Positions 3,259-19,319 of a DNA stretch of 64,000 nucleotides are shown piece by piece. The position numbers were made by a program, and so were the translations under genes. Each line of letters begins with the position of its first letter. The first letter of the stretch is position 1. The notes under the pieces were generated by a model. That model had not been told where the DNA came from and made no database searches. It was given only the letters and a program-made list of their open reading frames with translations. Source of the stretch: Domibacillus indicus (GTDB taxonomy: Bacteria > Bacillota > Bacilli > Bacillales > Domibacillaceae); contig NZ_JAMBOO010000006.1 in NCBI RefSeq assembly GCF_023715895.1, positions 62,001 to 126,000 of the forward strand, written 5' to 3'.

Positions 3259-3333
3259 TTTTCCATCTCCTTAATAATTCTCTAACTATACTACCTTGAT
3301 CGGAAATTTGATAAGGTGTATCTACAACATAAT

Positions 3334-3393: not shown

Positions 3394-3404
3394 ACTATGA
3401 CTGA

Positions 3405-4225: not shown

Positions 4226-5212
4226 TCAATAAGGCAGTGCATCCAATGGTATATCTGCTTTCTTTTTCTTAGATTTTTCTTCTCGCTCCTTTTCCTTTCT
4301 TTCCAAGATTGCTTCATATTCCTTCCGACTAATGTGTTTGATTTTTTTATAAAATGTATCGCCTTTGTCATTAAAATTTTGTTCTTTATTGGTTATGTAT
4401 GTGCTGCTTAATCTTTCTTTTTCCTCTAAGCCCACCGCAAAAAACTCTTGATTATGTATAACTTGTATCATTCGGTATCTTTTTAAAGAATCCATCGTAT
4501 TTACTAATGTCCCGCGTGAAAATCCTAAATCGTTTTCCAATTGTGTCAAGGATACTGTATAACCTTCTTCATATTTATCGTTCATCATCTTTAAATAACT
4601 ATATAAATAAAAGCCATTGCAGCCAATCTTTCGATGCTCCATACAAAAAAGAAATATTTCAAATGGGATAAGGGTTGTATTCTCTATATTATAAAAAGTA
4701 CCGTCTGGATAAATTTCTTCATATACTGAATAGTCATCTTCAATGTCTCTATGAAATGCTTTTAACGGCTTGCTGACCTTTAAATTGTTCTTGTAGATCA
4801 GCTTCCATTCATCTCTTAATCCCTTTACATCCTCGATATATTCTTCGTAATAATAAAATTCCAATTCCCTATTTCCTACAAAATCGTCTGTTATTTCCAC
4901 CGACATCGGGATTTCTCTTGTTAATTTAATATAATTTATTTCTTCGAGAATCCCACCCTTTTTTATCAGATAGTCTACGGGCTTATAAAGTGGTGAATAA
5001 CCCAGGATACATTTCAAGTCTTTTTGAATAATAATACGATTTCCATATTTAGCATTCCGGTACAGGTAATTAACTAAATAGTAAAATGAGAATGCAAAGG
5101 GACGATGATATTTCCTTATTTTCTCATTTTGAAAATCTTTAAAAATTTCGTTTGGTACAAAAATTTTCCCTTCCCTTTCCTCATGTTCTAAATATTTTTT
5201 TAAATTCTTCAA
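4226..5212 (-). CDS. probable winged-helix DNA-binding or replication-type protein
   Basis: A 328-residue, strongly charged cytoplasmic protein. The region about 205-260 (acidic helix, then LTQLENDLGFSRGTLVNTMDSLKRYRMIQ) reads like a helix-turn-helix/winged-helix module, where a recognition helix pairs with a strand-turn-strand. An N-terminal region (about 35-100) has a similar alternation, as in plasmid or phage replication initiators with two winged helices. The C-terminus is a Lys/Glu-rich tail. The start is TTG at 5212, chosen because GAGGAG lies 8 nt upstream. It might be the replication or regulatory protein of the island or of an ancestral plasmid; I cannot assign a family. Confidence 0.6.
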   Translation of the reverse strand: MKNLKKYLEHEEREGKIFVPNEIFKDFQNEKIRKYHRPFAFSFYYLVNYLYRNAKYGNRIIIQKDLKCILGYSPLYKPVDYLIKKGGILEEINYIKLTREIPMSVEITDDFVGNRELEFYYYEEYIEDVKGLRDEWKLIYKNNLKVSKPLKAFHRDIEDDYSVYEEIYPDGTFYNIENTTLIPFEIFLFCMEHRKIGCNGFYLYSYLKMMNDKYEEGYTVSLTQLENDLGFSRGTLVNTMDSLKRYRMIQVIHNQEFFAVGLEEKERLSSTYITNKEQNFNDKGDTFYKKIKHISRKEYEAILERKEKEREEKSKKKKADIPLDALPY

Positions 5213-5582
5213 ACTAAATTCTCCTCTTGCAATAAGATTTTTTTGTTTTTATTTAAGATAGTGTATGTACTAAAACAGATGATTAATCATTTATAAACCC
5301 GGTAATATACCTCATAACATCCACCTCACTTTTAATTCTTAATTTCAACGGCTTCAGAAACAGAACATAAGGTTCTACTTTAAAATTTTTATATCCCCTT
5401 CAAAAAAATTCTCTTTTTTTATAAATCTGTTGACAAAAGATATTGTAATTGTTTATAATTATTATATGATGGATATTTTTATGTTTTGAAGTAGATTGAA
5501 TAAATTTTACTATCTTTAATTCTATATGTCAATATTTCTTATTAAAAAAACAGCAATTCCTCATTGTATAAGTTAAAAAGAG

Positions 5583-5750
5583 AATTTTATGCACACGTAG
5601 AACACAAGTAAAAAACCTGTTTATTGAGGGGATTCCGAGTATATGATACGCACATTCACACGTACATAAAAATAAACTGATTGCAGCGATTAAAGTGCCT
5701 TACTCCTCTTGATAAAGAGCATTGGGTCAAATGGTGAAAACCAGCCCCCT
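5583..5750. repeat. island repeat module, copy D (right half only)
   Basis: This begins with TTTTATGCACACGTAGAACAC, shared with 7893 and (more loosely) 12277. It continues through the GTTTATT-AGGGGATT segment and a second CACACGTAC, and ends in GTGCCTTACTCCTCTTGATA and GAGCATTGGGT, nearly identical to copy B. The recombinase-relic half seen in copies A, B and C is missing. The next gene to the right is an HNH nuclease whose 3' end faces the module. Confidence 0.75.
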
Positions 5751-5883
5751 GATTTGAAAGCTTACAGAGATGTCGATTTAGTTCAGTTACATGAAAAGAA
5801 CCGCCTTGTATGTGACGGTATCATGCGGAAACTTCATGTTTTTGTTCAAAATGCAACCTTTAATTGGAACACTCAAGACCGCT

Positions 5884-6615
5884 TTAAAAAATCTTCTCGA
5901 TCTTCTTCAATTTCCTAATATACTCTTGTTGCTTTTTTATATATTCTTTAGAAGATTCAGTTCCATATCTAGACACTGCTTCTTCCATGTTAATGCCCAT
6001 TCTAATACCTCGACCTAATATGGCAGTTGGTCTACCATGACGTTCATTAACTGAATCATCCAAATCCTCTACCCAGCGTATTATCCTAGCATGCATAAAG
6101 CACTGTTCAACACAATTTCTATATTCCCACTTAGTCATTTTGTTTTTAACAGCCATATATTTAATGGCTTTATCCCAAGCATTTAAATCTAGATTATGTT
6201 TTATCGACGCAGTTTCGAACCAGACAAAAGGATTATCGGCTGATTTAGATTTGTTTAAACTGGCGGACAGTGGAAGCATATTTTCATAAGTTGTACCGCC
6301 AATACCATATTCAACTACTATTTCTCCTAAATTAATGGGGACAAAGTGATCTAGAACTACTGCTTCACTTGTGCCTGAAAGCATACATTTTGAATTAGCG
6401 TGTTCGACCAATATAAGATACTTTTCTTTACTTGTTAGTGTATTAGGAAGCTTTTTTTTCAATTGATTTCTTTTTTTGGAATGATGTCTAAAGCGTTCAT
6501 TATGACAGGACTTGCATTTACCTCTTCGACCGTGTTTTCCATCTTTGTTCGGATAAAAATCATGTAACGCTTTCTCTTTTTCGCAACGTGTACACCTTTT
6601 TAATATTTCGCTCAT
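5884..6615 (-). CDS. HNH endonuclease with N-terminal zinc ribbon
   Basis: 243 residues. The N-terminus holds a four-cysteine zinc ribbon (Cys8-x2-Cys11 ... Cys34-x2-Cys37) followed by a basic stretch, a layout common in phage-type HNH nucleases. The nuclease core follows at about 77-123, with Cys77, the Asp89-His90 pair, Asn112 and Asn121. The C-terminal ~100 residues are helical and charged and not recognised. ATG at 6615 is chosen over 6645 because GGAGGG lies just upstream of it. No RuvC-like domain is present, so it is not IscB-like. It lies right of repeat copy D. A homing-type or mobile-element nuclease is the likeliest role. Confidence 0.8.
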   Translation of the reverse strand: MSEILKRCTRCEKEKALHDFYPNKDGKHGRRGKCKSCHNERFRHHSKKRNQLKKKLPNTLTSKEKYLILVEHANSKCMLSGTSEAVVLDHFVPINLGEIVVEYGIGGTTYENMLPLSASLNKSKSADNPFVWFETASIKHNLDLNAWDKAIKYMAVKNKMTKWEYRNCVEQCFMHARIIRWVEDLDDSVNERHGRPTAILGRGIRMGINMEEAVSRYGTESSKEYIKKQQEYIRKLKKIEKIF

Positions 6616-6955
6616 AATGCCTTCCCTCCAAACTATTTCTTCCAAGTTTTTATTTCACTCTAAGTATTTCTGCCTGACTACCTTATATCCTTTTAAGATT
6701 ATTATGCCGACGTTACAGTTAGGAAAGCTTTATACATTTTGTAGGGGCGGAAATGCCAACCTTATTCCCCCTTTACAAGCACATCCATTTGGTGAAAAGC
6801 ACTCTTTCCTTTTGTAAAAACTATTTTCGAGAAGTTCATTTTGCTAGTACATTTAAAGTGGCGTTATGTAACATCAAGAAGAGACGGAAAAAATCATTTC
6901 TTAGTAGGTCGCACAAGATTGGAAATTATTTCTCATGTAATGAAAGGGTGATTCT
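6616..6955. other. intergenic region between divergent HNH genes
   Basis: 340 bp between two divergently transcribed nuclease genes. It presumably holds both promoters, but I see no convincing -35/-10 pair, and the short frames here lack coding character. Confidence 0.5.
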
Positions 6956-7591
6956 ATGGCAAAAAGAGGAGAAGTAAAAACAAGTAGAAAGAAAAAATCA
7001 GAGGAATTGGACATAACGGGCTTTAAGTTGCTCCCTTCTGCTAAACCGCCGCTGTTTCATGGATACACAGTAAGAAAGACTGTTAGTAGTTACTTCTGGG
7101 GAAAGAAATTGCGTCCTTTCATATTAGAACAGCAAGGGAAAAAATGCGCTGTTTGCGGCTGGACACCTAAACATGAAACTGAAATGAAACGCCTTCACTT
7201 GCACGAAATAGAGAAATACGATTTTGATAATAAAGTATGCCACTTAATCGACATTCAACTCATTTGTTGGAAATGTCACTCATTCCAACATATTGTACGA
7301 ACTAAATCAGTATCGACAAAGGAACAGTGGGAGGATTTGATGCTGCATTTCATTCGTGTAAATGGCTGCCCTGCTGAAATTGTAAACCAGTTTGACTTGG
7401 TGGTAACGAAAGCACTACAGCAAGAAGACAATAGTGGAAAGCCCTTAGAAGCACGCTCTTTAGAGGAGATTTTTAAATTAGCAAAAAAGCCTGCAAAGTT
7501 TACTATTCATCCTTCCATCCCTTTTGCAGAGGAATTAAAGAAGCAAATAGAAAAAAAGGGGTTGCTCTATGAGTTTGAACAGCAAGAATAA
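6956..7591 (+). CDS. HNH-type zinc-binding nuclease-like protein
   Basis: 211 residues. A basic N-terminus (about 1-15) precedes an HNH/zinc module at about 60-115: Cys64-x2-Cys67, His81 and His83 in LHLHE, then Cys104-x2-Cys107-His108 and His112. The spacing fits HNH nucleases that bind structural zinc through two CxxC knuckles, but the metal-dependent histidine pair is not the textbook DH, so activity is uncertain. The C-terminal 90 residues are charged and helical with no known motif. AAAGGGTGA precedes the ATG at 6956. A hairpin terminator follows at once. It is divergent from the HNH gene at 5884 and bounded on the right by repeat copy A. Confidence 0.7.
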   Translation: MAKRGEVKTSRKKKSEELDITGFKLLPSAKPPLFHGYTVRKTVSSYFWGKKLRPFILEQQGKKCAVCGWTPKHETEMKRLHLHEIEKYDFDNKVCHLIDIQLICWKCHSFQHIVRTKSVSTKEQWEDLMLHFIRVNGCPAEIVNQFDLVVTKALQQEDNSGKPLEARSLEEIFKLAKKPAKFTIHPSIPFAEELKKQIEKKGLLYEFEQQE

Positions 7592-7610
7592 CTATATCTT
7601 TAAATAATAA

Positions 7611-7645
7611 CCTTCATGCTACCTTTAACAGGGCAAGCATGAAGG
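7611..7645 (+). terminator. terminator of the HNH-like gene
   Basis: Perfect stem CCTTCATGCT / AGCATGAAGG with a T-rich tail. Similar but diverged hairpins precede the recombinase relic in repeat copies B (12001-12040) and C (16735-16779), so this hairpin is part of the repeated module. Confidence 0.8.
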
Positions 7646-7675
7646 ATTTCTTATGTGTAGTCTTTTTATGATCGA

Positions 7676-7801
7676 TTAAATGTCCAATGAATTGAGCGGA
7701 TTATATTTGTCATTTTGCTCCCTCAATTCATTTCCCCACATTGCAACATAACGCATGGTCACGTTGATATTTTTATGCCGTATTAATTTCTGTATAACAC
7801 G
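7676..7801 (-). pseudogene. C-terminal relic of a tyrosine recombinase (in repeat copy A)
   Basis: Forty-one codons remain, ending in a TAA. They read VIQKLIRHKNINVT-MRYVAMW, then NELREQNDKYNPLNSLDI. The HK-N-VT-RY spacing matches the last catalytic histidine region and nucleophilic tyrosine of XerC/D-like recombinases. Several in-frame stops lie directly upstream, so the rest of the catalytic domain is gone. The same tail recurs in copies B and C. Confidence 0.7.
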
Positions 7802-8071
7802 CTATTACTATTACTTAGCTTTATAATCCTCTTTTCATAATCCTTGTTCATATTTTTGTTTTTGGCTCTTACCTTGATTCATAAAATCAAAGTTTTATGC
7901 ACACGTAGAACACACGGAAAAACCTTGTTTATTAAGAGGATTTTAAGCATGTTATGAAAGCATGCACACGTACAAAAAAATGAAGCTGAGTGCGGGGATG
8001 AAGGTGCATTAACCAAACTAGAAAATGCACCTTGGGTATCTGGTCATAAACACCCCCTTGCTAATGTGAAC

Positions 8072-8917
8072 TTATTTTTCTAAATTTCTGAGCATCCTAT
8101 CTACCGAATGCCAATAGGAATCTTGGTATAAACGCCCCTCTTTGCAAACAAGCACTCTTCCGAATTTAAATTCCCCTTCGTTTGGAAACATATCAGAATT
8201 TGCTTTGAGATTGACTGAACCAACATATTCTCCTGCAATACCAAGATGAACGATAACTCTGGTTTTAGACAAAGTAAATAATACAGACGATCCCTTCAAA
8301 TAATTAATTTGCATTTTTATTAATCCGGCTTGCCCTTTATCTTTGTCTTCAACCTTTCTTAAATTATCATAGAAACGTAATCCATTTACTTTTCCTATTT
8401 CTTCTTTTAAATCCTTCGAAAACACAATTCTTCTTAACGAATCATGGTCTGCGTGTTCTAAAAATGTATTGCCGTATACAAAAAAACCGGCTGCTAAGGC
8501 AACTTTGCAAATAAATTTTATTCGAATGTGAGGATTAATCATAAACTCTGTTTTTAATTGTAGCGAACCAATGTTAATAATTTCTTTCCTCTTAATTGGA
8601 TCAAATAATTCTAGACCTTTTTCAGTAAAACTCACAATAATTGGTTTTCCGTCAATTGTTTTTGATTTTTTTAAATCTAGACGGGGCAACTTGCCGGAAT
8701 GCCCGCGAAAACTGCTTTTTATAAGTTTCATCTTCATTAATGGGTCACTGTGAAAGTTACCGTCAACCTTATTGCCTACTGTAGAATTTAAATGCTTATC
8801 CACTAGAATTGTAAAATCGTTTGATCCGCCCAAACTCAAAGGAATGATATGTTCAACATTACATTTTTCACGATCTATTTCTTTATTTGAATAAATACAA
8901 TATAATTTACTGCTCAA
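8072..8917 (-). CDS. HNH endonuclease family protein
   Basis: 281 residues. The nuclease motif is at the extreme N-terminus (about 5-45): Cys7, Cys19, the Glu22-His23 pair in VEHIIPLSLGGSND, Asn33 and Asn44. It resembles HNH proteins that start directly with the zinc/metal fold, but the first cysteine knuckle is C-I-Y-S, so one canonical cysteine is absent. The remaining ~230 residues are beta-rich and not recognised. TTG at 8917 is preferred because AAGGGG lies 6 nt before it; GTG at 8926 is the alternative. The 3' end lies ~20 bp from repeat copy A. An integrase fragment lies upstream. Confidence 0.75.
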   Translation of the reverse strand: MSSKLYCIYSNKEIDREKCNVEHIIPLSLGGSNDFTILVDKHLNSTVGNKVDGNFHSDPLMKMKLIKSSFRGHSGKLPRLDLKKSKTIDGKPIIVSFTEKGLELFDPIKRKEIINIGSLQLKTEFMINPHIRIKFICKVALAAGFFVYGNTFLEHADHDSLRRIVFSKDLKEEIGKVNGLRFYDNLRKVEDKDKGQAGLIKMQINYLKGSSVLFTLSKTRVIVHLGIAGEYVGSVNLKANSDMFPNEGEFKFGRVLVCKEGRLYQDSYWHSVDRMLRNLEK

Positions 8918-8946
8918 TTTTTGCACCCCTTGTTTAAATAAATGAA

Positions 8947-9180
8947 TTAAAGCTTAAATATATCAAAGTCCATCTCGATTTCTTCCGCTGTAATTCCAAT
9001 ATAATCTAGTGGGATGGCTGGATGGGAATGGTTTAGTATCTTTTGCAACTTTGCTACGTCATAGAATTGTTTGTAATGCCAGTATCCGAACGTTTTACGC
9101 ATCGTGTGTGTTCCAATTCCTGTACTTATATCAGCCATGTCTGCTGCTTTATTCAATTGTCTGTACGCTTGTATGTGTGT
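8947..9180 (-). pseudogene. truncated tyrosine integrase C-terminus
   Basis: The frame reads QAYRQLN, then ADMADISTGIGTHTMRKTFG and LNHSHPAIPLDYIGIT, i.e. the H-x-x-R box (GTHTMRKT), the later histidine (NHSHP) and the tyrosine (DYIGIT) of a phage-type integrase distinct from int and from the relic in the repeats. A stop precedes the fragment, so the N-terminal ~100+ residues are lost. It sits immediately upstream of the HNH gene at 8072. Confidence 0.75.
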
Positions 9181-9309
9181 TCATTCAACGCCCCTTTTTA
9201 CAAACAAAAAAGGCACGTGATGGATCACCACGAACCTTGATGCTTTATTTTAATCTCTAGCTAACAGTAGACCGATAGTGTTGATTAAACAACCAAGTCT
9301 TTGGGAAAC

Positions 9310-9993
9310 TCACTCTTCGTCCTGTTTTTCAAAATCACTCCATGTCCAGTTTGACCAATGAGTGTTTGGATTTTCTTCATGTATTACATTTTTATCATTT
9401 AGCTCAATAGCGTTTGCAAGGCTTTGAAAGAAATGATTTTCACTTGGTTTTTCTTCATCTATGTGTTCCCACTCTTCTGTTTGGTAAAATAAAGGAAGGG
9501 AAGGGACAGCATCAATCTCTTGAAACATGTCTGAATTGCTCAGCCAAAATTTCTCTTTGCAATAGGTACTCAAAAAGCGAGCCAGTTTGGTTGGATTAAA
9601 GGATTCGGGTTCAATTCCTAACTGTGCGTAATCTCCAGCCTGAGATTCTAGGACAACTGTCTTTTTGTTTACAATTAAATCCAAATGGAAGGGATTCACT
9701 AAAAATTGATCGTCATCATCCCATAGTTCTCCCTTGTCTGCTAAAGTCACAATATCGTCTAAACTGATAATAAACCCTTGTTCCTCGGCATCATTCCCGT
9801 AAACATAAAGATCATTAGCAATGTTTTGGTTTTTATCGACACCTACGATTTCGAATACAATAAGCCAGTTTTCTTCATCTTTAAAAACCGACAGCCTGCA
9901 TTGAGCTAAATCGAAATTGTAATTATCCAATACTGGAAAATCAAAATCTTCTGAATAGCTATCTAATGTTTTAAGTATTTCTTTTGCTTTCAT
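9310..9993 (-). CDS. acidic hypothetical protein, immunity-like
   Basis: 227 residues, very acidic, rich in Trp/Tyr and without membrane or signal segments. An N-terminal helical part (KEILKTLDSYSEDF) is followed by a beta-rich region (about 20-110) and a helical tail ending in a Trp cluster (HWSNWTW). I do not recognise a catalytic motif. Its small acidic character and place beside a HEAT-repeat gene and two other small acidic genes match arrays of orphan immunity genes, but that is inference. ATG at 9993 is preferred; a GTG at 10005 lies too close to the GGAGA. Confidence 0.55.
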   Translation of the reverse strand: MKAKEILKTLDSYSEDFDFPVLDNYNFDLAQCRLSVFKDEENWLIVFEIVGVDKNQNIANDLYVYGNDAEEQGFIISLDDIVTLADKGELWDDDDQFLVNPFHLDLIVNKKTVVLESQAGDYAQLGIEPESFNPTKLARFLSTYCKEKFWLSNSDMFQEIDAVPSLPLFYQTEEWEHIDEEKPSENHFFQSLANAIELNDKNVIHEENPNTHWSNWTWSDFEKQDEE

Positions 9994-10030
9994 TTCGAAT
10001 TTCACTCTCCAATAAAGCTAGTCAACCAAG

Positions 10031-10534
10031 TTAGATAAAACTTGAAATAGCTTCCTTTAATTCTTCAAGAACTTCTTCGTCTTCTTCTATGTCTAACCGT
10101 TCTTGAAGCATTGGAAGAACCTTTTTGTTACCAATGTAATGTAAAGCATAGATAGAATACGCTCTAATTTCTTCATTTGGATCGTTAATACATGATAATA
10201 AAGAATCAACCAATCTTTCATCAGGAAAAGATTTGGCTATCTGTGTACCCCAATACCTCTTTCCTTCATTTTCGCTTTGTATGATTTCAATCAACTGTGG
10301 CACTATTTGGTCACTAGAAAAACTTTCTAATACCGCTACAGCATGGTCATATATCCCATAACTCTCACTTAAACTAAATGTCATCATAATAGGTGTAATA
10401 CAGATTGGGTCTGGATGTTCGATAAAATAATTAATCGCATCAGCATATTCGTCTAACATTTCTTCAGTCATGCCTTCTTCATCAGGCATAGGAGAATATT
10501 TTTTAAGTCCTAACAGTGCTTGGTCTTTATTCAC
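10031..10534 (-). CDS. HEAT-repeat protein
   Basis: 167 residues. After an acidic N-terminal helix region (about 10-55), HEAT-like helical pairs run from about 60 to 165, with recurring patterns such as ERLVDSLLSCINDPNEEIRAYSIYALHYIGN and KVLPMLQERLDIEEDEEVLEEL split between helices. HEAT proteins bind partner proteins; small ones are common among polymorphic-toxin immunity genes. The start is GTG 10534 with AGAGGTGA upstream. It lies 37 bp from the gene at 9310 and may share its transcript. Confidence 0.65.
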   Translation of the reverse strand: MNKDQALLGLKKYSPMPDEEGMTEEMLDEYADAINYFIEHPDPICITPIMMTFSLSESYGIYDHAVAVLESFSSDQIVPQLIEIIQSENEGKRYWGTQIAKSFPDERLVDSLLSCINDPNEEIRAYSIYALHYIGNKKVLPMLQERLDIEEDEEVLEELKEAISSFI

Positions 10535-10571
10535 CAAAATTCACCTCTATTTTAATGTACACGAGTTGTTA

Positions 10572-11246
10572 TTAGGTGTAAATTTTTGTAATCCAGCTAC
10601 TGGATTTAGATTTCACCACAATTAAGTTTTCAGTCTGCCATCGAAGTGTCCCCAAAAATCTATTATATACAACCTCATTCCCTACTTCTGTTACTAACAA
10701 TTGGTCAATCAGTCTTTTTCCACGTTCATTATAAACTTCACAACGCAATTGAAAACCTTCCGAACGATGAATCCCTTTTAAAATAGCTGTTTTTTTGCGG
10801 CTAGGACTTTTCTTTGGTGTTTTATCAATCAAAAAAACTGTTTCATAGTTTTGTTTCACAATTTCTGCAAGTGATTCTTCTATATAAGAAGAAAGGATAG
10901 GTAAAGGCAATGTTGTGTATTTTTCTAAGACAGGAACAATATAAGAATGAACCAATGATGAAAAACACTGAAATTTCTCTTCGATTGATTTTGAATTTAA
11001 AAAGGACATAAAATCATCTGGAACAAATATGCACATTTCCTCGAGAGCTTTATCTTCTTTGTAGGAGACAGATTTTTTTGGATTTGCTAAACAATAAACT
11101 CTTATGGTATCAAACCCCCTTAACACAACTCCCAACTTGTTTAGTTTCTCTGAGAAAATCAGTTCAAATATTCTCATTTCATGCAGCCGGTTGTAATGCT
11201 TTTTAGGACGGTTTTTTCCCCAATCTTGAAAGTGAATAGAGAGCAT
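10572..11246 (-). CDS. hypothetical protein of the cargo cluster
   Basis: 224 residues, soluble, basic overall in the C-terminal half (KTPKKSPSRKK near 140-155). No known motif is apparent. ATG at 11246 has AAGGGG nine bases upstream, and an extended -10 promoter lies ~40 bp before it (11288-11296). It is followed by the HEAT gene in the same direction. Confidence 0.5.
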   Translation of the reverse strand: MLSIHFQDWGKNRPKKHYNRLHEMRIFELIFSEKLNKLGVVLRGFDTIRVYCLANPKKSVSYKEDKALEEMCIFVPDDFMSFLNSKSIEEKFQCFSSLVHSYIVPVLEKYTTLPLPILSSYIEESLAEIVKQNYETVFLIDKTPKKSPSRKKTAILKGIHRSEGFQLRCEVYNERGKRLIDQLLVTEVGNEVVYNRFLGTLRWQTENLIVVKSKSSSWITKIYT

Positions 11247-11287
11247 TTGTCACAACCCCTTTATCTAACTCTTTATGGTAAGAGAAA

Positions 11288-11296
11288 ATTATATCA
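11288..11296 (-). promoter_or_regulatory. extended -10 promoter of the gene at 10572
   Basis: TGATATAAT on the minus strand, a perfect extended -10, lies 42 bp before the start codon. The -35 is weak. An 18-bp sequence just upstream (11310-11327) recurs exactly at 15904-15921. Confidence 0.5.
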
Positions 11297-11389
11297 TAGT
11301 AGCCTATACTCAACAGTACGTCCATACAAATGAACAACACTATTCCAGATTGGGAAGCAGCTGACCGTTGTACTAGCAGGGTCGTCAGT

Positions 11390-11875
11390 TCAATAAGGGA
11401 TTTCCGCTTCTTTAAATACATTTTCATAAACGTTATCACTTGGCTTTTCAACACCGTTTTGAAGCAACTTTTTTCTAGCGGTATTAAATAAACCACTTGG
11501 GATATTTGGAAATTCATTTTCCCAGCCATCTCTTTCATCCAACTGACTTAGAGATTCAACAATAGCAAGATAAATGTTTGGGTATTGCTTCTTAATGTTA
11601 GAAGAGTATGTTAAAAACTCTTGAAGATACTTATCAAAATGATGACAGTCGTGTTCTTCAATACCTGTGCAAAACGGAAATCCACTTTCGTCTTCCCAAT
11701 CTAAGAGAAGACCCCAAAAAGCAAGAAGTGAACCTGCTCTATATCTTGGGTGATTATCATTAAAATGTTCATAATATGTGTACAACAATTTGCCACACCA
11801 ATCCAAGTCTATGATCCCGCCCATTTCCTTTATTTCATTATGTAATAAGTCCAATTTTCCTTGAATGGAATACAT
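11390..11875 (-). CDS. hypothetical acidic protein, immunity-like
   Basis: 161 residues, acidic, with many aromatic residues; helical throughout, with an internal CTGIEEHDCHH segment that might bind metal. No family recognised. ATG at 11875 has AAGGAA about seven bases upstream. A shorter frame covering 11203-11538 overlaps it on the same strand but lacks coding character. Confidence 0.55.
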   Translation of the reverse strand: MYSIQGKLDLLHNEIKEMGGIIDLDWCGKLLYTYYEHFNDNHPRYRAGSLLAFWGLLLDWEDESGFPFCTGIEEHDCHHFDKYLQEFLTYSSNIKKQYPNIYLAIVESLSQLDERDGWENEFPNIPSGLFNTARKKLLQNGVEKPSDNVYENVFKEAEIPY

Positions 11876-12000
11876 TAATAAATTTCCTTTCCAAACATAG
11901 ATTTCATAATTATTGTATCAGGTTTCATGTACTACTTAGACTAACCTAACCCATTGGTTTAACAAGAGATTCAACAACGAAGCTTAGGAAAGCTTAAATA

Positions 12001-12450
12001 AAAACCCCCACGCTACCTTTAACAAGGAAAACATGAAGGTCGTTTTGCTCTTGATATTGATTAAATATCCAGAGAGTTAAGTGGATTATACTTATCATTT
12101 TGCTCCCGTAGTTCATTTTCCTACATGGAAACATAATACACTTACACATTGATGTTTTATGCGCATTAATTTCTGTATAGCCCGCTGTTATCCGTTACTC
12201 AGCTTTATGATCCTCTTTTCATAATCCTTATTCGTGTTTTTGTTTCCGGCTTTGACATTGATTTATAAAATCAGAGTTTTATGCACACGTAAAGTACACG
12301 TAATAATCCCGTTTATTAAGAGGATTTTAAGCATGCTATGAAAGCATGCACACGTACAAAAAATGAAGCTGAACGCGGGGATTGAAGTGCCTTACTCCTC
12401 TTGATAAAGAGCATTGGGTTAAATGGTAATAAGGCACGCCCACTCAATTA
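12001..12450. repeat. island repeat module, copy B
   Basis: Colinear with copy A over ~440 bp. The recombinase tail (12061-12190, minus strand) now has in-frame stops but still reads NELREQNDKYNPLNSLDI. The two CACACGTA motifs, the GTTTATTAAGAGGATTTTAA tract and the GCTGAACGCGGGGATTGAAG segment follow. The terminal hairpin has a different stem (GTGCCTTA, 12388-12395, with TAAGGCAC, 12430-12437) at the place where copy A has AAGGTGCATT/AATGCACCTT, so pairing is kept while the sequence changes. A GIY-YIG gene follows on the right. Confidence 0.8.
12061..12190 (-). pseudogene. recombinase C-terminal relic in repeat copy B
   Basis: Same tail as at 7676-7801, ending NELREQNDKYNPLNSLDI and TAA, but with at least two in-frame stops in the preceding ~25 codons. 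No functional product is expected. Confidence 0.65.
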
Positions 12451-12597
12451 CACATCTTCACAATTAGCCCAAACTTCTAACAATATTTCTTGTTGTATTC
12501 TTTTACCTTAATTATTATGCTAGGTTTATAGGAAATTAATACTGCATCTTCAGATCATAGACAGATAAAAAGACATCTTAGAAAGTGAAGTGAAAAA

Positions 12598-13275
12598 ATG
12601 TTAAAGGAATTACTATCAAGATTTTCACAGAAGTCTAAACCTAAAGAAATAATAAAAGAAACTGTTGTCACCGCACCTCAAAAAATTTTCTTGTTTCAAC
12701 CCAATTCAAAAGAGTTAGAAAGTGTTATTAACTCTCCTTATCCAGATGGCAAGGCTCCAGGTTATGTTTATTTTGTTCAAGAACATTTAAATGGTTCTTT
12801 TAAAATCGGTAAAACTAAACACATTGACCAGAGAATGAACCTTTTCAATGTTAAATTGCCCTTCGAGAATGAACTTATTTTTCTTATCAAATCGGGGAAT
12901 CACCATCAAACTGAAGTCGCTTTTCATAAACATTTTGCCCATAAGCGTTTAGAAGGAGAATGGTTCGCTTTAACGCGAGAGGATATTACATGGATTAAAG
13001 AAAGAAATTACACAGAAGACATAAATGTGACTATCAATAATCCGTCAGGTTCAGAGCGTAAACAGAAAGATGAAACTATGGCTCTCCCTTTAACAGAGAA
13101 ACAGATTGAATATGCAAAGTCTATGATTAAAAAGTTAGATCAAGAATACGATTTAATGGTTGATTACTCATCCTTAACCAAGAAGGATTTAGACAGATTA
13201 ATCGTTTATTTTAGATACAAAAACGTTGGTGCTTTGAATAGCCTAGTTAAAAATGGTGTGCTTAAAGTTAAATAA
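12598..13275 (+). CDS. GIY-YIG / T5orf172-domain protein
   Basis: 225 residues. The domain at about 55-135 has the GIY-YIG-like pattern GYVYFVQ ... FKIGKT ... QRM, then HHQTEVAFHKHF and LEGEWFAL, the signature of the T5orf172/MUG113 subfamily. The N-terminal 50 residues are basic and the C-terminal 70 a helical domain with K/R-rich ends. GIY-YIG domains cut DNA; this subfamily is common in phages and mobile elements, and its substrate is not predictable. GTGAAGTGA precedes the start. It sits right of repeat copy B. Confidence 0.8.
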   Translation: MLKELLSRFSQKSKPKEIIKETVVTAPQKIFLFQPNSKELESVINSPYPDGKAPGYVYFVQEHLNGSFKIGKTKHIDQRMNLFNVKLPFENELIFLIKSGNHHQTEVAFHKHFAHKRLEGEWFALTREDITWIKERNYTEDINVTINNPSGSERKQKDETMALPLTEKQIEYAKSMIKKLDQEYDLMVDYSSLTKKDLDRLIVYFRYKNVGALNSLVKNGVLKVK

Positions 13276-13302
13276 AAAATCTACTATCATCACAAAATTG
13301 GT

Positions 13303-13335
13303 GAACTACATATTGATATGTGGTTCTTTTTCTTT
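13303..13335 (+). terminator. terminator of the GIY-YIG gene
   Basis: Stem GAACTACATAT / ATATGTGGTTC (with G-U pairs) followed by a T-rich run, 28 bp after the stop codon. Confidence 0.7.
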
Positions 13336-13682
13336 TTGATAAACAATAGTTTTTAATCACTACATAAGAAAGCTTCTTAACAATAGAAACACGCAGCTAG
13401 TTAGCGTGTTCAAAATGGAGGTTTTTGTTGCAAACGCCCTTCCTAAGCGTAGGGTTTTCCTCTCATCAATTCTCCCTCAATTTTTAATTAAGAGGAAATA
13501 CTGTACCCAAAAGGATATTCTATAAGGCATACCCTCTTTCATAATCGGACTTTAATATACAGGACTATCTCACTTAAAACATTTACAATAAAAGAAAAAT
13601 ATAGAAAAAAACCAGCAACCAAATAAAAAGTTGTGGTAAAATAGTACCGTATCAAGAAAACTATTTAAGCAGGGGGAACAGT
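13336..13682. other. intergenic region before the SH3b gene
   Basis: A small hairpin (AAACACGC/GCGTGTTC, 13386-13411) is visible, with no supported gene. The 3' part is AT-rich and must hold the promoter of the secreted SH3b protein; TGGTAAAAT near 13632 is a possible extended -10. AGGGGGAA precedes the ATG. Confidence 0.45.
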
Positions 13683-14450
13683 ATGAAAAAGGTCGTTGGC
13701 TTAATTGCAGCTTTATTTTTAATACTCACTTTATTGCCGTTACAAAAAGCAGAAGCAAGTCCAGTAAACAAGAATTACACAGTAAACGTAAGTAAGTTAG
13801 ATGTACGTGAAAAACCAAGTCCTAAAGCAAAAGTAGTAGGGTCTCTAAAAAAAGGAAAGATTGTATTCGTTTATAGTACCGAATCCGGCGGCTGGTCAAA
13901 GATCAAATATAACAACAAAGCAGGTTATGTAGCATCTAGTGGATTAAAAGCAACACAAGGATCAACAACTACCCCTCCTCCTGTCAAAGCTGTTCCGGTT
14001 GGTACTGGGAATTTAAAAGGAACAGTAACGTGGCAATATAACAGATATATTGGCACAAAACCAGATGTTGGAGCTAAGGTATTTTTAATACCAATGAATT
14101 TCGACTATACAAAATATTCTGAATCGGATTTAACTTTTTACGGTACTATTGGTTCAGTACCCGCAAATTCTAACCTTCATTTTGCGAAGGTAAATGGATA
14201 TGGACAATATGAAATCTCTGACGTACCAGCCGGAAAGTATCTAGCTGTTATTGTTTCTAACAATACAACTCGTGATTTTAATCAACCGCTTTACATTGAA
14301 AGTACATTGAAACCTCTTTTAGGTGCAAAAGCTTATGCAAATTTTAAAATTATGAATTTAAACTTAGACAAGCACGATTGGACTACAATTGAAATTAAAC
14401 AGGACAAGACACTAGATTACAGCGAGGATTTTGGATACACATACTTGTAA
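13683..14450 (+). CDS. secreted SH3b-domain protein
   Basis: 255 residues. A signal peptide (about 1-25, ending in AEA) is followed by a bacterial SH3 domain (about 30-90: LDVREKPSPKAKVVGSLKKG, then GWSKIKYNNKAGYV). A Thr/Pro linker leads to a ~150-residue C-terminal domain with the carboxypeptidase-regulatory-like pattern G-V-GA-V and YEISDVPAGKYLAV. SH3b domains bind peptidoglycan or surface peptides, so the protein likely acts at the cell wall. No catalytic domain is visible. The terminator at 14491-14521 follows, so it is monocistronic. Confidence 0.75.
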   Translation: MKKVVGLIAALFLILTLLPLQKAEASPVNKNYTVNVSKLDVREKPSPKAKVVGSLKKGKIVFVYSTESGGWSKIKYNNKAGYVASSGLKATQGSTTTPPPVKAVPVGTGNLKGTVTWQYNRYIGTKPDVGAKVFLIPMNFDYTKYSESDLTFYGTIGSVPANSNLHFAKVNGYGQYEISDVPAGKYLAVIVSNNTTRDFNQPLYIESTLKPLLGAKAYANFKIMNLNLDKHDWTTIEIKQDKTLDYSEDFGYTYL

Positions 14451-14490
14451 TAAACAGATTTGTTAAAGATGTAGAGGGCTATTCCGAAAG

Positions 14491-14521
14491 AATAGGACTT
14501 CCTGTTGGAAGTCCTATTTTT
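14491..14521 (+). terminator. terminator of the SH3b gene
   Basis: Perfect stem AATAGGACTTCC / GGAAGTCCTATT with a TTTTT tail. Confidence 0.85.
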
Positions 14522-14531
14522 GCTGTTAACG

Positions 14532-14632
14532 TCTCATACGTATAAAAAAGCTAAGCTGAGTGCGGGGATGAAAGTGCATACGCTGGTTTTAAGAAAGCTT
14601 TGCGGTTATTTGGTGATTAATACCCCCATCTA
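14532..14632. repeat. island repeat module, copy E (tail only)
   Basis: Shares CATACGTATAAAAAAGCT, then AGCTGAGTGCGGGGATGAAA-GTGCAT with copies A and B, and ends in GGTTATTTGGTGATTAA-TACCCCC, which matches the GGGT...ACCCCC tail of the others. The recombinase relic and the first CACACGTA motif are absent, and the terminal hairpin is not evident in this copy. Confidence 0.65.
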
Positions 14633-14739
14633 TTTGTACACTCCCCCTTTACTTAGAAAAAACACATCTTTAGTTGACATTTAAAAAAATAGTAGCTGCT
14701 TAGACAAACTCTTCTTCTAAGCTTGTTATTTTTAGCTAA

Positions 14740-15096
14740 TCACCTTCTCCAGAACTTTATTGCGTTCGCATAGCTTCTTGCTGACGTGGAAGGGGAAAAT
14801 TTTATTTTGTGCTTTCCTTCCAGTTCCTTCTTTGCTTTTTTAGTCAGTTCTATTCCCTGTCTATTATGCTCTACTTCAAGTTCGATTCCATTGGGCAGCA
14901 GCTTGTCTTTATCCCAATCAATCCATTCTCCATATCTTGTCATCCAATCCCGAAGTTCTTCTTTTAATCCCTCCGAAATGGAGATTTCATCTATATCAAG
15001 GTTGCTGCCACAATGACTACACCATATAGGATCGCCACCCATATCCCCTTCGATTATCAATTCATAAGGTATGCTTTGTTCACAAGAGCATTCCAT
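14740..15096 (-). CDS. small zinc-knuckle hypothetical protein
   Basis: 118 residues. The N-terminus has a Cys-x-Cys ... Cys-x2-Cys arrangement (MECSC and WCSHCGSN) consistent with a small zinc ribbon; the rest is charged and helical, ending in a basic tail with Trp (KFWRR). ATG at 15096 has AAGGAG ten bases upstream, better than the TTG at 15105. It probably shares a transcript with the gene at 15149. Function unknown; the size and context fit a cargo or immunity gene. Confidence 0.55.
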   Translation of the reverse strand: MECSCEQSIPYELIIEGDMGGDPIWCSHCGSNLDIDEISISEGLKEELRDWMTRYGEWIDWDKDKLLPNGIELEVEHNRQGIELTKKAKKELEGKHKIKFSPSTSARSYANAIKFWRR

Positions 15097-15148
15097 TCTC
15101 TTCAAGCTCCTTTACTTTCGAATTTCACTGAACGACCTACTGAATTGC

Positions 15149-15433
15149 TTAAAATTCAATTTTTTTCTTAGGAGAAATGTTTGGTCTGTCTATTAATGCA
15201 GCAACCTTCTTTCCTTTTTTAAATCTAATATGATTAAGCCAGTAAACAAAAGCTTCCGTATCGTAATTAACAATATATCCTATCTCTTCATCGTATACCC
15301 AATACTTATGGTCATTGTTTCTATCAAAAAGCCAATCGAAAAATTCCATTTGAAGTTGACCAATGTTTCTTCCTACTTTGGCAGGACATCGAACATATTG
15401 TGTATCAGGTCCTAAAGACACCTCTATAATCAT
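15149..15433 (-). CDS. small hypothetical protein
   Basis: 94 residues, soluble, aromatic-rich (FFDWLFDRN, YWVYDEEIGYIV), with a Lys-rich C-terminus. ATG at 15433 has AAGGAG seven bases upstream. No known motif. It lies 52 bp upstream of the zinc-knuckle gene in the same direction. Confidence 0.5.
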   Translation of the reverse strand: MIIEVSLGPDTQYVRCPAKVGRNIGQLQMEFFDWLFDRNNDHKYWVYDEEIGYIVNYDTEAFVYWLNHIRFKKGKKVAALIDRPNISPKKKIEF

Positions 15434-15463
15434 CTTGTCGCTCCTTTTTGTTTCATTTTCCAT

Positions 15464-15622
15464 TTTAGTCTTCTTTAGCTTTCTTTAACTAACCTAAACA
15501 GTCCAACCATACGGATAAACAGCACTAATGTCTAATTAGTTAGTATTTGACCTAAACTGTTGATTAAGAAATCTAACTTTACTAAACATTAATATTGATT
15601 TTCAGTTAGTACACAAGGTTTT
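15464..15622. other. gene-free stretch in the cargo cluster
   Basis: AT-rich DNA with repeated CTAAAC(A/T)GT words; presumably the promoter of the gene at 15149. No gene is supported. Confidence 0.4.
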
Positions 15623-15802
15623 TTACGCCTTCTTTTCCCGCTCTTTCAAATTCATATAGATAAGAATACTCAAAAAGAAAGCACCTCCGATTGAACTGGT
15701 AATCACCCGTAACAATCGAGTTTCATCAAAACCAAAAAGCAAATGCCCTAAAGTATACAATCCTGACAAAACAATAATCCATCGAAGTAATATTTTTTTC
15801 AT
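15623..15802 (-). CDS. 59-residue membrane protein
   Basis: A small gene with a good ribosome site (AAGGAG ten bases before the ATG). The product has two hydrophobic segments (about 5-24, LLRWIIVLSGLYTLGHLLFG, and about 33-50) joined by a short charged loop, and ends in a K/E-rich tail (KEREKKA). Two transmembrane helices are expected. It resembles no family I know. Confidence 0.55.
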   Translation of the reverse strand: MKKILLRWIIVLSGLYTLGHLLFGFDETRLLRVITSSIGGAFFLSILIYMNLKEREKKA

Positions 15803-15903
15803 ATGCTAGTAACTCCTTATTTTAAACAATAAAAATGTCGTGAAAATATACAATGCTTATGTAAGTTTACTTCTGTCTTCTTTTAAAAGAAAGACGTAGT
15901 TAA

Positions 15904-15921
15904 TCAACAGTACGTCCATAC
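15904..15921. repeat. 18-bp exact repeat shared with 11310-11327
   Basis: TCAACAGTACGTCCATAC occurs here and at 11310-11327, in both cases ~65-100 bp upstream of a minus-strand cargo gene (the 59-residue gene and the gene at 10572). It may be a shared promoter-region element or a remnant of common ancestry. Confidence 0.5.
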
Positions 15922-16028
15922 TGCACGAAAACGTTTTAAGTTAAAAAGTGAGAGCATCATTTCTTTAATAATAAATAGATGTTAATATGTTATTTTCAAT
16001 GAATTATTAAAATAAATGGAGAAACAAA

Positions 16029-16694
16029 ATGACTAAAGTGCTGCAATTGTTTTTAGATCAATATTATAATGGTTTAGTTTTAGCACCCGGTTTGTTTTAT
16101 TCGTGGGAGAATAGTATTCGTTTTGAAATTTCACCGCCTTTCCGATTCGATGAAAAACAAACTTTTCAACGAGCCATCACCTTATTCAATAAGGCTTTTG
16201 AGGAAAACAACCATATATTGCTTGTTACAGATGTGCATTCCACAAGCGGGGACAATTTTCTTCAAAGAAAACCTTTAAATGTTTATCTAAAGTACGCGAA
16301 ACACAAACAAACATTATACAAGCTGCAATATCAACTGTTACCCAGTGTTTTTGATGACCAAGATGAAGAAGACAACGAGGACGAATCGATCACTCATCGT
16401 TTTGTTCTTCCTTGTCTGAAAAATGAAATTAAGTATTCCCAACTTTTAAAAGCTATTAGCTATGAAGACTTTGCTCACCCATCTACAATATTGAAAAACA
16501 ATTATCAAAACGGGTATGATATTTACTTTATTAATCTCTCTAAGAAGATAATTTATCATTTGTATGATGACCGTGGTTGCGATATTCTGGCGGCTGATAA
16601 AGAGGATATAAGATTTTTTTACGAAGAATATAGTGATTGGATTTTGGATTATGACCGTGTAAAAATTGATCTGCTGTTTAGAGAGAGAGCATAA
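16029..16694 (+). CDS. DUF3885-type protein
   Basis: 221 residues, acidic, soluble. The C-terminal ~50 residues (IYHLYDDRGCDILAADKEDI, then YEEYSDWILDYDR) match the DUF3885 pattern I know from Bacillus proteins of this size. A very acidic segment (about 112-125) sits mid-protein. DUF3885 genes are frequent near toxin/immunity loci, but no activity is established. TGGAGAAAC precedes the ATG at 16029. A strong terminator, part of repeat copy C, follows. Confidence 0.7.
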   Translation: MTKVLQLFLDQYYNGLVLAPGLFYSWENSIRFEISPPFRFDEKQTFQRAITLFNKAFEENNHILLVTDVHSTSGDNFLQRKPLNVYLKYAKHKQTLYKLQYQLLPSVFDDQDEEDNEDESITHRFVLPCLKNEIKYSQLLKAISYEDFAHPSTILKNNYQNGYDIYFINLSKKIIYHLYDDRGCDILAADKEDIRFFYEEYSDWILDYDRVKIDLLFRERA

Positions 16695-16734
16695 GTCTTA
16701 TTTCAATAATGAGGATTGCTTAATAAAACAAAAT

Positions 16735-16779
16735 AACAACCTTCATGCCGCCTTTTACAGAGGTAACATGAAGGTTGTT
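16735..16779 (+). terminator. terminator of the DUF3885 gene (start of repeat copy C)
   Basis: Perfect stem AACAACCTTCATG / CATGAAGGTTGTT followed by TTGTTCTT. It aligns with the hairpin at the left of repeat copy A. Confidence 0.8.
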
Positions 16780-16887
16780 TGTTCTTGGTGTTAATTAAAT
16801 ATCTAGAGAGTTAAGTGGATTATATTTATCATTTTGCTCTCTCAATTCATTTCTCCACACGGCAACGCAAGGCAGTGTCACCTTCTA
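16735..16887. repeat. island repeat module, copy C (left half only)
   Basis: Holds the terminator hairpin and the minus-strand recombinase tail (16795-16878), reading VAVWRNELREQNDKYNPLNS, then LDI and TAA, with the catalytic tyrosine position altered to Cys. The right half of the module is missing; homology breaks off inside the 3' end of the membrane-protein gene. Confidence 0.7.
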
Positions 16888-17321
16888 GACGAGGAGGTAA
16901 AAAGGGCAACGATAAACAGAAGAAGAAACGCAAATGCCGCTGCGTAAAGGAACAACTTTCCCCCTTCAAATAAAAACCAACCAACAAAACCTATTTCAGC
17001 AGCCCCTAATAGAACTTTGAGAGAAGTATTAATTTTACCCTCTTCTAATGATAAAGTAGCAATATTTGTAATACCCATCCATAAAAGCAAAAGAGCAGAT
17101 ATTACATAAAGTGCGATTGGCAACCAAATATTCATTGCTGCACTATAGCTTTGCTGCTCTTCGAAGAGGTTTTGAATATTAATAGAAATAAACTCTGATA
17201 AAGAAAGGCCTGTAGTGTCAATGGATAGGGATTTTGCAAGTATTGCTAATCCAAAACAAATAAGAATAAAAAGTATTTGTACGGCATTTATTTTAAAAAT
17301 TTTTACCCCTAACTCAAACAT
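16878..17321 (-). CDS. four-helix membrane protein
   Basis: 147 residues with about four hydrophobic segments (near 10-30, 68-88, 103-120 and 122-140). The C-terminal residues (SSSRR) and stop codon fall where repeat copy C begins, so the original 3' end may have been altered by the module. ATG at 17321 has AGGAGG seven bases upstream. No family recognised. It is the last gene before the right end of the island. Confidence 0.6.
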   Translation of the reverse strand: MFELGVKIFKINAVQILFILICFGLAILAKSLSIDTTGLSLSEFISINIQNLFEEQQSYSAAMNIWLPIALYVISALLLLWMGITNIATLSLEEGKINTSLKVLLGAAEIGFVGWFLFEGGKLFLYAAAFAFLLLFIVALFTSSSRR

Positions 17322-17460
17322 TTGCATCCCTCCTTTTTAACCACTATATGTAGTCGTTACCTTTATTAAGACAAGTGTATTTGATATCTAAAAAGTATTG
17401 AATAATATAAATTTCATTGGAAATTTTTTCGTGTTTGAATTATAGGTACAACCCTAAAAT

Positions 17461-17496
17461 AAAAAGAGATATCTCCATGTAGAGATACCTCTTTTT
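17461..17496. terminator. bidirectional terminator near the right end of the island
   Basis: Imperfect stem AAAAAGAGATATCTC / GAGATACCTCTTTTT. Its ends resemble the hairpin at 31-66, outside the left end. Confidence 0.65.
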
Positions 17497-17508
17497 AACG
17501 TATAATGC

Positions 17509-17615
17509 GTGGTCACATCACTTTATTTTCAACTTCTATTGGTCACACATTTGGTCACATCTTTTGAAAAAAGGCTGTATTTCTGGTCACATTTCAGCTA
17601 ATTTTGTGTGACCAC
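17509..17615. promoter_or_regulatory. cluster of five GGTCAC motifs: candidate right arm sites
   Basis: GTGGTCACA (17509), TTGGTCACA (17539), TTGGTCACA (17551), CTGGTCACA (17583) and the inverted TGTGACCAC (17607-17615) lie within 107 bp next to attR. Two more motifs lie at the left end. Direct-repeat clusters flanking the core are typical of tyrosine integrase arm sites. Confidence 0.6.
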
Positions 17616-17628
17616 GCTCTGTTTTCAC

Positions 17629-17852
17629 CTCTTACCGGTTATCTACCGTTTCTGGATACAGGTCATGGTTCATCATGCGGTATTCAGCCATTTTCTCGTA
17701 TTTTGTGCCAGGCTTCCCGTAGTTCGTGTACGGGTCAATGGAAATCCCGCCACGCGGCGTGAATTTGCCCCATACTTCAATGTAGCGTGGGTCCATCAGT
17801 TCAATCAGGTCATTCATGATAATGTTCATGCAGTCCTCATGAAAATCACCGT
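17629..17852. repeat. attR: right 224-bp direct repeat
   Basis: Partner of 121-344. From here to the queF stop the sequence is probably supplied by the element and restores the gene. The crossover most likely occurred in the perfectly matching ~98 bp at 17755-17852. Confidence 0.85.
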
Positions 17853-18129
17853 GATTGCGGAAGCTGAACAAGTACAGCTTCAACGATTTACTTTCGACCA
17901 TTTTCACATCGGGAATGTAACTGATGTAAATAGTCGCAAAGTCCGGCTGACCCGTCATTGGGCAAAGCGACGTGAATTCCGGGCAGTTGAATTTTACAAA
18001 GTAATCACGGTTTTGATGTTTATTGTCAAACGTCTCAAGAACGGATGGGTCATAGTCAAATATATAGTTTGTTCCTTGATTACCAAGTAGCGTAATGTCT
18101 TTTAGTTCTTCTTCTTTTCGTCCAGCCAT
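17632..18129 (-). CDS. queF: NADPH-dependent 7-cyano-7-deazaguanine reductase
   Basis: 165 residues, the length of the short (unimodular) QueF family. It reduces preQ0 to preQ1 in queuosine tRNA modification. The catalytic Cys56 lies in [12 protein letters not shown] with Asp63 seven residues later, and the VESKSLK motif binds substrate or NADPH. The ATG follows GGAGG by a few bases. Residues after about 93 are encoded by the repeat that the island brought in; the junction leaves the protein intact. The promoter is native chromosomal DNA upstream. Confidence 0.97.
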
Positions 18130-18162
18130 GCCGGAGCCTCCTTATAAATCATATTCTTTTTT

Positions 18163-18171
18163 ATTATAGCA
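18163..18171 (-). promoter_or_regulatory. queF promoter, extended -10
   Basis: TGCTATAAT on the minus strand, 34-42 bp upstream of the queF start. The -35 is poor, as is common with extended -10 promoters. Confidence 0.45.
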
Positions 18172-18206
18172 GAGACAGTTTACAATGAGGAAAAGGAGTG
18201 GTACAA

Positions 18207-18527
18207 ATGCAGCATGTAACCTCATACACGGAATTTTCAGATATTCTTTCATCCAGCGAAGCCGTGCTGCTTTATGTTTCAAGCCCTGGCTGTTCTGTTT
18301 GTCACGCCCTGCTGCCTCAGGTCCAGGCACTTATGCAGGAGTTCCCCCGTGTCACAACGGTTTACGCGAATACGGGAATCGCCCCAGATATTGCCGGCCA
18401 GTTTACTGTTTTTTCCGTGCCAGCTGTTCTTTTCTTTTTAAAAGGCAAGGAGCAATTCCGCGTGGTCCGTTTTGTTCCGATCGGAGGCTTAAGAGAAAGT
18501 ATTGCCAATGCTTTAAAAATCATTTGA
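18207..18527 (+). CDS. thioredoxin-like protein
   Basis: 106 residues with the thioredoxin fold: an active-site Cys29-Ser-Val-Cys32 in SPGCSVCHALLP and a cis-proline loop (SVPAVLFF). The non-WCGPC active site sets it apart from the housekeeping thioredoxin; it resembles the YdbP-type family. The start is taken as ATG at 18207 because AAAAGGAG is eight bases upstream; a GTG at 18198 overlaps that ribosome site. It probably acts as a general dithiol reductant. It lies 57 bp before the carbonic anhydrase gene. Confidence 0.85.
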   Translation: MQHVTSYTEFSDILSSSEAVLLYVSSPGCSVCHALLPQVQALMQEFPRVTTVYANTGIAPDIAGQFTVFSVPAVLFFLKGKEQFRVVRFVPIGGLRESIANALKII

Positions 18528-18583
18528 CAAAAAATTATGAAATCCTTCACAATAATAAGGGAGTATGGAAAGGAGAGAATACA

Positions 18584-19159: not shown

Positions 19160-19173
19160 AAGAGCCTCTGAGA

Positions 19174-19318: not shown

Positions 19319-19319
19319 G

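Follow-up and report, generated by a model that had tools for sequence, protein, structure and literature searches.

A noncoding unit that is repeated within a genomic island of Domibacillus indicus carries, in its right half, what is probably the DNA-packaging start site of Tyrovirus-type giant siphophages, and the island itself would then be a phage satellite, or several of them stacked and partly decayed. This reading was reached by comparison of sequences. The island occupies positions 124-18129 of the window (the whole stretch of 64,000 nucleotides analysed here, contig NZ_JAMBOO010000006.1, positions 62,001 to 126,000) and lies at queF, a gene named by eye, whose 3' end is duplicated at the left border (124-321, minus strand, open reading frame) and whose intact copy, the integration target, forms the right border (17632-18129, minus strand, open reading frame). 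A first-pass annotation of the DNA had described a unit of about 440 bp in five copies, whole or halved, and knew of no described family that would fit it. The five copies were recovered at their places by a direct-repeat search; as for the family, the match is to the genome-end site of the phages named above, and lies in the right half.

The copies, called A to E, were mapped by a direct-repeat search of window positions 4500-18500, then by BLAST and then with the profile model R1, built from 8 copies. Two further models were used: R2 (14 copies, whole unit) and R3, for which 22 island copies were used and phage sequences were left out. The corresponding alignment A8 holds the same number of copies as R3, and both omit the partial or weak copies L066, L117, L120, L121, L095, L098, L032a, L091a, L096b and L090c; alignment A6 holds 24 copies. 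The unit consists of a left part, made of a terminator hairpin and the C-terminus of a recombinase encoded on the minus strand, and of a right half about 170 bp long. Its recovery was piecewise, B and C being whole and A, D and E partial. Unit B (7600-8052) comprises a left part at 7600-7807 (minus strand, direct repeats), in which the remnant belongs to a groEL-type tyrosine recombinase, and a right half at 7881-8052 (plus strand, R1 score 127.1 bits, predicted cut 8005/8006). Unit C (11994-12434) has the same parts at 11994-12190 (minus strand, direct repeats and alignment) and 12265-12434 (plus strand, 125.4 bits, predicted cut 12388/12389). From unit A only the packaging-site-like right half was recovered (5574-5742, plus strand, 114.3 bits, predicted cut 5696/5697), from unit D a shortened right half (14507-14622, plus strand, 41.9 bits, predicted cut 14575/14576), and unit E, near the right border of the island, is limited to the left part with its terminator and dead recombinase tail (16729-16884, minus strand, direct repeats and BLAST). 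The terminator and the decayed recombinase tail that had been assigned to the unit are those of the left parts of B, C and E. By BLAST the copies in this genome are 74-87% identical across matched parts; with copy C as query the E-values range from 1.5e-98 to 6.1e-10, the self match excepted, and with copy B as query unit D is reached at E 4.9e-8. The two CACACGTA motifs reported for the unit were also recovered: the motif occurs 7 times in the window, a count reached by 0 of 100 shuffles, and 6 of these occurrences fall inside units A-C with a spacing of 65 bp in each. Two boxes of the right half are kept across genera, and the stretch between them drifts.

When the two-box pattern was scanned over IMG/VR, 4 matches were obtained (L152-L155), and a single one of them, L155, was also matched by R2. 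It is a phage contig of 168,876 bp with the site near its end, where an exact terminal repeat of 284 bp begins with GCTATAAGG directly after GGAGT; R2 covers the CACACG part through the boxes on one strand there (168521-168640, E 6.4e-4). Phage Tsamsa is described as having 168,876 bp and a repeat of 284 bp at both ends, confirmed by restriction profiles (excerpts of PMC3903500). Since size and repeat equal these published values, we infer that the contig is Tsamsa. The record of the Bacillus subtilis phage PJN02 (NC_071050) likewise has an exact terminal repeat, of 275 bp (1-275 and 165594-165868), at the place homologous to the Tsamsa end. In both of these records (2/2 with exact terminal repeats) the genome border falls at GGAGT/GCT, the slash marking the border, inside the most conserved box of the unit. 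The other phage records do not end at the site and so give no test of the border; FADO and 2S-4 have GGAGT/GCT at the matching place inside the record, and Tyro1 has GAAGT/GCT. Among the 22 island copies of A8, the second base after the border is C in all, and the T before it and the G after it are each found in 19.

Model R3 has its best match at one homologous site in five of six whole records of Tyrovirus-type giant siphophages, namely at 224-304 in PJN02, 62830-62910 in FADO, 31960-32040 in BcoS-136, 6004-6084 in 2S-4 and 168588-168644 in the 168,876-bp contig. The E-values are 4.8e-5 to 3.1e-4, and the next other place scores 0.052 or weaker, a figure that excludes the second terminal copies in two records (E 0.0115 and 0.0295). 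Other phages gave an R3 E-value of 0.67 (SPBc2) or no match (SPO1). The site lies in a stretch lacking annotated genes, where two gene arms converge, in PJN02, FADO and BcoS-136; the corresponding stretch of 2S-4 carries no annotation. In addition, a 23-mer ending the second box is identical in the 168,876-bp contig and in the 159,412-bp IMG/VR contig Tyro1. According to excerpts of one study, Tsamsa, Thrax1-5, FADO, PJN02, 136 and Tyro1 form the Tyrovirus group, and Thrax1-5 have terminal repeats of 284-285 bp by PhageTerm; T7-like packaging was deduced (PMC9703825). The ends of Tsamsa, Thrax1-5, PJN02 and FADO share with the islands a box ending in AGT/GCT, about 30-45 variable bases and then TTGGT.A.AAG.ACCCCC. 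They differ in that the phages have paired ends of 275-284 bp, whereas the islands have 1-5 copies scattered among cargo genes. Taken together, the similarity of the unit to the phage ends and the border at GGAGT/GCT in two records indicate that the unit matches a terminase cutting site.

Several observations weigh against this proposal. BcoS-136 has ATA/GCT instead of AGT/GCT at the border, and in the Tyro1 contig the best R3 match is elsewhere (23046-23108, E 0.0021) although the conserved 23-mer is present. For the CACACG part of R2 the best match in FADO, PJN02 and 2S-4 begins 45 bp beyond the R3 site and on the opposite strand, a further difference from the islands, and the same-strand matches in these three phages are weaker (E 0.07-0.11). 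Whole R2 performs poorly in the phages, with best E-values of 6e-4 to 0.018 and other places nearly equal, and alone it would not single out the phage ends; a DNA search with unit B gave no match at E 1e-5 in plasmid and phage collections. Two further phages that carry a relative of the island's rep-like gene rep-a (see below) lacked the site by R3, the best E-values being 0.0018 at 89304 in Geobacillus E3 and 0.07 at 128092 in Sundance, whose annotated terminal repeat (1-323) has no R3 match, and no R3 match better than E 0.69 was obtained in the virus-like rep-a loci L101-L109. The terminal repeats of 136, PJN02 and FADO are given as not confirmable by similarity in excerpts of the Tyrovirus study (PMC9703825), and the ends of the PJN02 record may rest on assembly. 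Weak R1 matches (E 0.002-0.1) in 12 of 24 genomes of the family were set aside. Finally, a satellite needs one site, and only decay and stacking account for the five partial copies.

The remainder of the island is in keeping with a satellite. It has a site-specific integrase, a tyrosine recombinase with arm-binding domain (387-1556, minus strand; Pfam PF00589, PF14659 and PF14657), together with the duplication of the queF 3' end. Rep-like proteins of two families were distinguished, rep-a, which is phrog_19047, and rep-b, which is unnamed; the island encodes a rep-a protein (4226-5212, minus strand, PHROG scan and phage relatives) related to a PJN02 gene product annotated as replication initiator, and further relatives, FADO included, bring the total to 12 records, representing 7 large phages of Bacillales. 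The cargo consists of a caspase-like protease, three genes of HNH or endonuclease VII type, a GIY-YIG gene and several unknown genes. No virion gene was seen by Pfam among the 15 larger island proteins, 9 of which were also scanned with PHROG, the small frames lying outside the scan. The combination of integrase, rep-like gene and defence-type cargo with no virion gene seen makes the island look like a phage satellite or the stacked remains of several. Phage satellites, among them the phage-inducible chromosomal islands (PICIs), are characterized by an integrase, target duplication, a rep gene, absence of virion genes, accessory defence genes and a packaging site shared with a phage. The queF island resembles them in its integrase, target duplication, defence-type cargo, a putative packaging site that matches phages and the lack of virion genes among the proteins scanned, and its rep-like gene is a candidate replication gene; it differs from PICI-like satellites in its putative helpers, siphophages of 159-169 kb with T7-like terminal repeats, and in having several sites. 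For satellites of the P2/P4 kind, defence hotspots have been described (PMC9122126).

In the scheme that we propose, Tyrovirus-type phages would be the likely helpers; the terminase of such a phage would use the island sites, cutting the right half at AGT/GC, and the particle would be filled from there, the CACACG tract being a candidate region for the terminase small subunit. The additional copies may be left-overs of successive satellites at one target, each of which once had a recombinase gene beside one site, and they may now also act as patches of homology for the exchange of blocks. The match between the sites suggests that the particles of such phages carry the defence genes from cell to cell, or did so in the past, packaging itself being a deduction. 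If correct, the proposal identifies what carries one class of defence islands in Bacilli and ties them to Tyrovirus giant phages, offers a short DNA signature for finding such satellites, and predicts the genome end of FADO, 136 and 2S-4. Titles and the beginnings of abstracts on queF islands, Bacillus satellites and Domibacillus satellites contained no description of this element.

Units were also sought in other genomes. Strong R1 matches (E<=4e-7) were found in 3 of 24 genomes of the family, all of the same genus. At the level of the order, R2 matched 9 of 397 genomes at E<=1e-4 (2 of the genus and 7 outside it), and at the level of the class 7 of 398 at E<=5e-4, the present genome and 6 others. 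This gives 13 non-Domibacillus genomes with a match, one of which (L121, genome G451) is probably an ordinary terminator, judged by eye. A DNA search of the 397 genomes of the order yielded outside the genus only one weak coding match; the match L023 was discarded as it lies inside a coding frame. Others are found in apparently integrated islands, at queF (L094, Jeotgalibacillus proteolyticus), guaA (L116, L118, L119), rdgB-yfcE (L090, L093) and elsewhere, with restriction-modification and large ATPase genes as cargo; targets and cargo were named by eye, the latter from translations. A rep-like frame was detected by profile in the listed stretch for 5 of the 13 genomes (L090, L092, L093, L094, L117), and one adjoins units in the window, L028, L029 and L032. 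The profile scan for rep-b found 4 loci in the genome collection and none in the viral collection, and that for rep-a at least 9 loci in the viral collection (L101-L109). The genome of D. indicus has two more right halves on another contig (L032 10705-10860 and 12789-12954), where a second island (L032 7626-14305) lies between two tRNA-Val copies and two units of the same direction flank rep-b. The D. tundrae queF island (L029) carries DarT/DarG-like, reverse transcriptase and AIPR-like genes (named by eye); at 9783-13968 its reverse transcriptase gene and DarT/DarG-like pair adjoin a unit. Five of the viral rep-a loci (L101-L103, L105, L109) are virus-like contigs, about 16-22 kb long, that carry rep-a together with frames reading like capsid, portal and terminase. 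In appearance they resemble satellites that form capsids, or else very small phages; L101 begins with a recombinase resembling the groEL type.

The recombinase tail of the left part is matched at the C-terminus of a XerC-like protein of 303 residues, whose frame is open next to a groEL-like one in genome G007 (L008:709-1620). By eye, the alignment of units B and C with L007 of D. tundrae reveals one common deletion border, and B is 80% identical both to C and to L007 of another species. The first-pass annotation had proposed that the copies were multiplied after decay: the shared border agrees with this, whereas a recent local amplification does not hold, since B is no closer to C than to L007. 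Another contig, from genome G018, has a unit fused to the N-terminal portion of a recombinase of this kind (L066), and a tyrosine recombinase frame borders the unit in two other genomes (L117, L120). From the shared border, this junction and these neighbours, we infer that in an ancestral element the recombinase lay next to the unit.

Related islands differ in their cargo at the unit or next to it, in agreement with the earlier view that the units bound blocks which may move as such between strains. The GIY-YIG block (12322-13402) recurs with 87% identity in a different island of genome G012, listed as the same species (L064 17274-16192), with the right half of the unit included at the same place, and it has no match in the queF island of that genome (L030). 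The latter island, whose stretches matching window 123-344 and 17628-17849 are the same, also matches window 11307-12126 and, 53 bp later, 17455 onwards; its segment 4650-5266 matches 14521-15136, after unit D, and 20 bp further on its segment 5286-6881 matches 8963-10559. Among the guaA islands, L116 has the segment with resolvase and unit in common with L118 (83% identity) and with L119 (82%), each match covering about 950 bp and breaking off about 55 bp past the unit; L118 and L119 are 79% identical over 3.9 kb. The neighbouring cargo of these islands differs.

An unlikely explanation is that the units are inert fossils (pieces of the genome ends of giant phages or dead satellites) which serve only as patches of homology for recombination of cargo blocks and package nothing now. 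The divergence of the copies (about 20%), the halving of several, the dead recombinase with its single deletion border and the exchange of blocks around the unit would all be expected of fossils. Such fossils accord less well with the conservation of the two right-half boxes across genera while the intervening stretch drifts, and with the recurrence of the unit in islands where an integrase or rep-like frame is still open. We also consider it rather improbable that every unit is a live packaging start of a modular satellite, in which the terminase of a giant siphophage would begin at any of several same-direction sites and export different defence blocks, and in which shared sites would let incoming satellites swap blocks by homology.

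The packaging-site reading also has to be compared with that of a dedicated site at which a site-specific recombinase would insert or remove cassettes, as the first-pass annotation had considered. In 6 of the 13 non-Domibacillus genomes a serine resolvase lies 28-145 bp from the unit, in 2 more a tyrosine recombinase frame lies 52-74 bp away, and the right halves have, by eye in the alignment, a sharp left border near ATAAAA-N6-TTTTAT. The resolvases, however, belong to several subfamilies, with 25-35% identity to that of L118 outside its group. By eye, six of six close relatives of the L118 resolvase have their own conserved site upstream of the gene, and a unit match within 1.5 kb was found at only 2 of 30 loci of this family (E 0.00019 and 0.42); for these two reasons the resolvase site was dropped. 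The site upstream of the serine resolvase in L122-L127, shared by several genera, reads TTACCGATAGA..ACGGTAA and then TTACCGTTTGACT.TTAC (by eye). Integron cassette arrays resemble the island in their repeated noncoding sites of the same orientation between cargo; they differ in that the island blocks are multi-gene and in both orientations and that its site matches a phage genome end. No integron integrase was recognized among the recombinases tested: the NCBIfam model, whose cut-off is 265, gave 52.3 bits for the groEL-type recombinase L008 and 63.3 bits for L117, the scan of the island's own integrase being limited to Pfam. With the unit coinciding with phage genome ends, a recombinase site appears very unlikely.

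Equally hard to sustain is a regulatory region or structured RNA, with a promoter and operators for the minus-strand genes on the left and a terminator-like end: many of the 19 units inspected are indeed flanked by minus-strand genes, one with its stop to the right and another with its start to the left, and the CACACGTA-like repeats, spaced by about 11 bp, could act as operators, but unit D and others have no promoter-like part, and the absence of an Rfam family and of covariation as well as the coincidence with phage genome ends speak against it. An Rfam search of window 1-20000 at E-values up to 5 returned 10 matches, none of which reached its gathering score or lay in a unit. For 8 copies, RNAalifold proposed 6 pairs at -1.5 kcal/mol, and folding z-scores ranged from -1.7 to +0.9 on the plus strand; on the minus strand the lowest were -4.0 (L009) and -2.6 (B) and the highest was +1.3. 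A second stem of 10 pairs had 65.2% pairing over 24 copies and no covariation, 474 of 500 shuffles pairing equally well or better, and the palindrome test of the CACACG tract reached p <= 0.05 in 4 of 17 testable copies (7 of 24 were too short). The terminal hairpin, for which selection on a structure had been suggested, pairs in B and C; A shares the left arm of C without the right arm, so that the hairpin is not conserved. A decayed coding gene was rejected: two frames give peptide-like readings, yet no start is shared by the copies, stop codons occur often, codon positions differ only weakly in their signal (154/171/198 differences over 9 copies) and Pfam gave nothing convincing. Origins of transfer (oriT) and of replication were also considered; no relaxase was noticed among the listed frames, no dedicated relaxase model having been scanned.

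The other genes of the island are arranged as follows. A 69-codon open frame runs out of unit A (5709-5918) and had no convincing relative in searches. The caspase-like protease (1708-3258, minus strand; Pfam PF00656, E 1.8e-15) is a probable defence gene. Between units A and B lie an endonuclease VII/HNH-like gene (5884-6645, minus strand, PHROG 1035) and an HNH endonuclease gene (6956-7591, plus strand, PHROG 5200) that converges on the tail of unit B. Unit B is followed by an HNH_5 endonuclease gene (8072-8926, minus strand, Pfam PF14279), a truncated small tyrosine recombinase (8947-9156, minus strand, open reading frame), whole with 187 residues in D. tundrae (L029:3117-3680, by comparison), and a run of cargo genes with DUF7003, HEAT repeat and unknown products (9310-11875, minus strand, open reading frames and Pfam). 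Past unit C are the GIY-YIG (T5orf172/MUG113) gene of the exchanged block (12598-13275, plus strand, Pfam) and an SH3-domain protein, secreted by its look (13683-14450, plus strand, Pfam PF08239). A DUF3885 gene (16029-16694, plus strand, Pfam PF13021) precedes unit E, and two small genes (14740-15463, minus strand, open reading frames) follow unit D, the first of which, by comparison, also follows a unit in G012 (L030).

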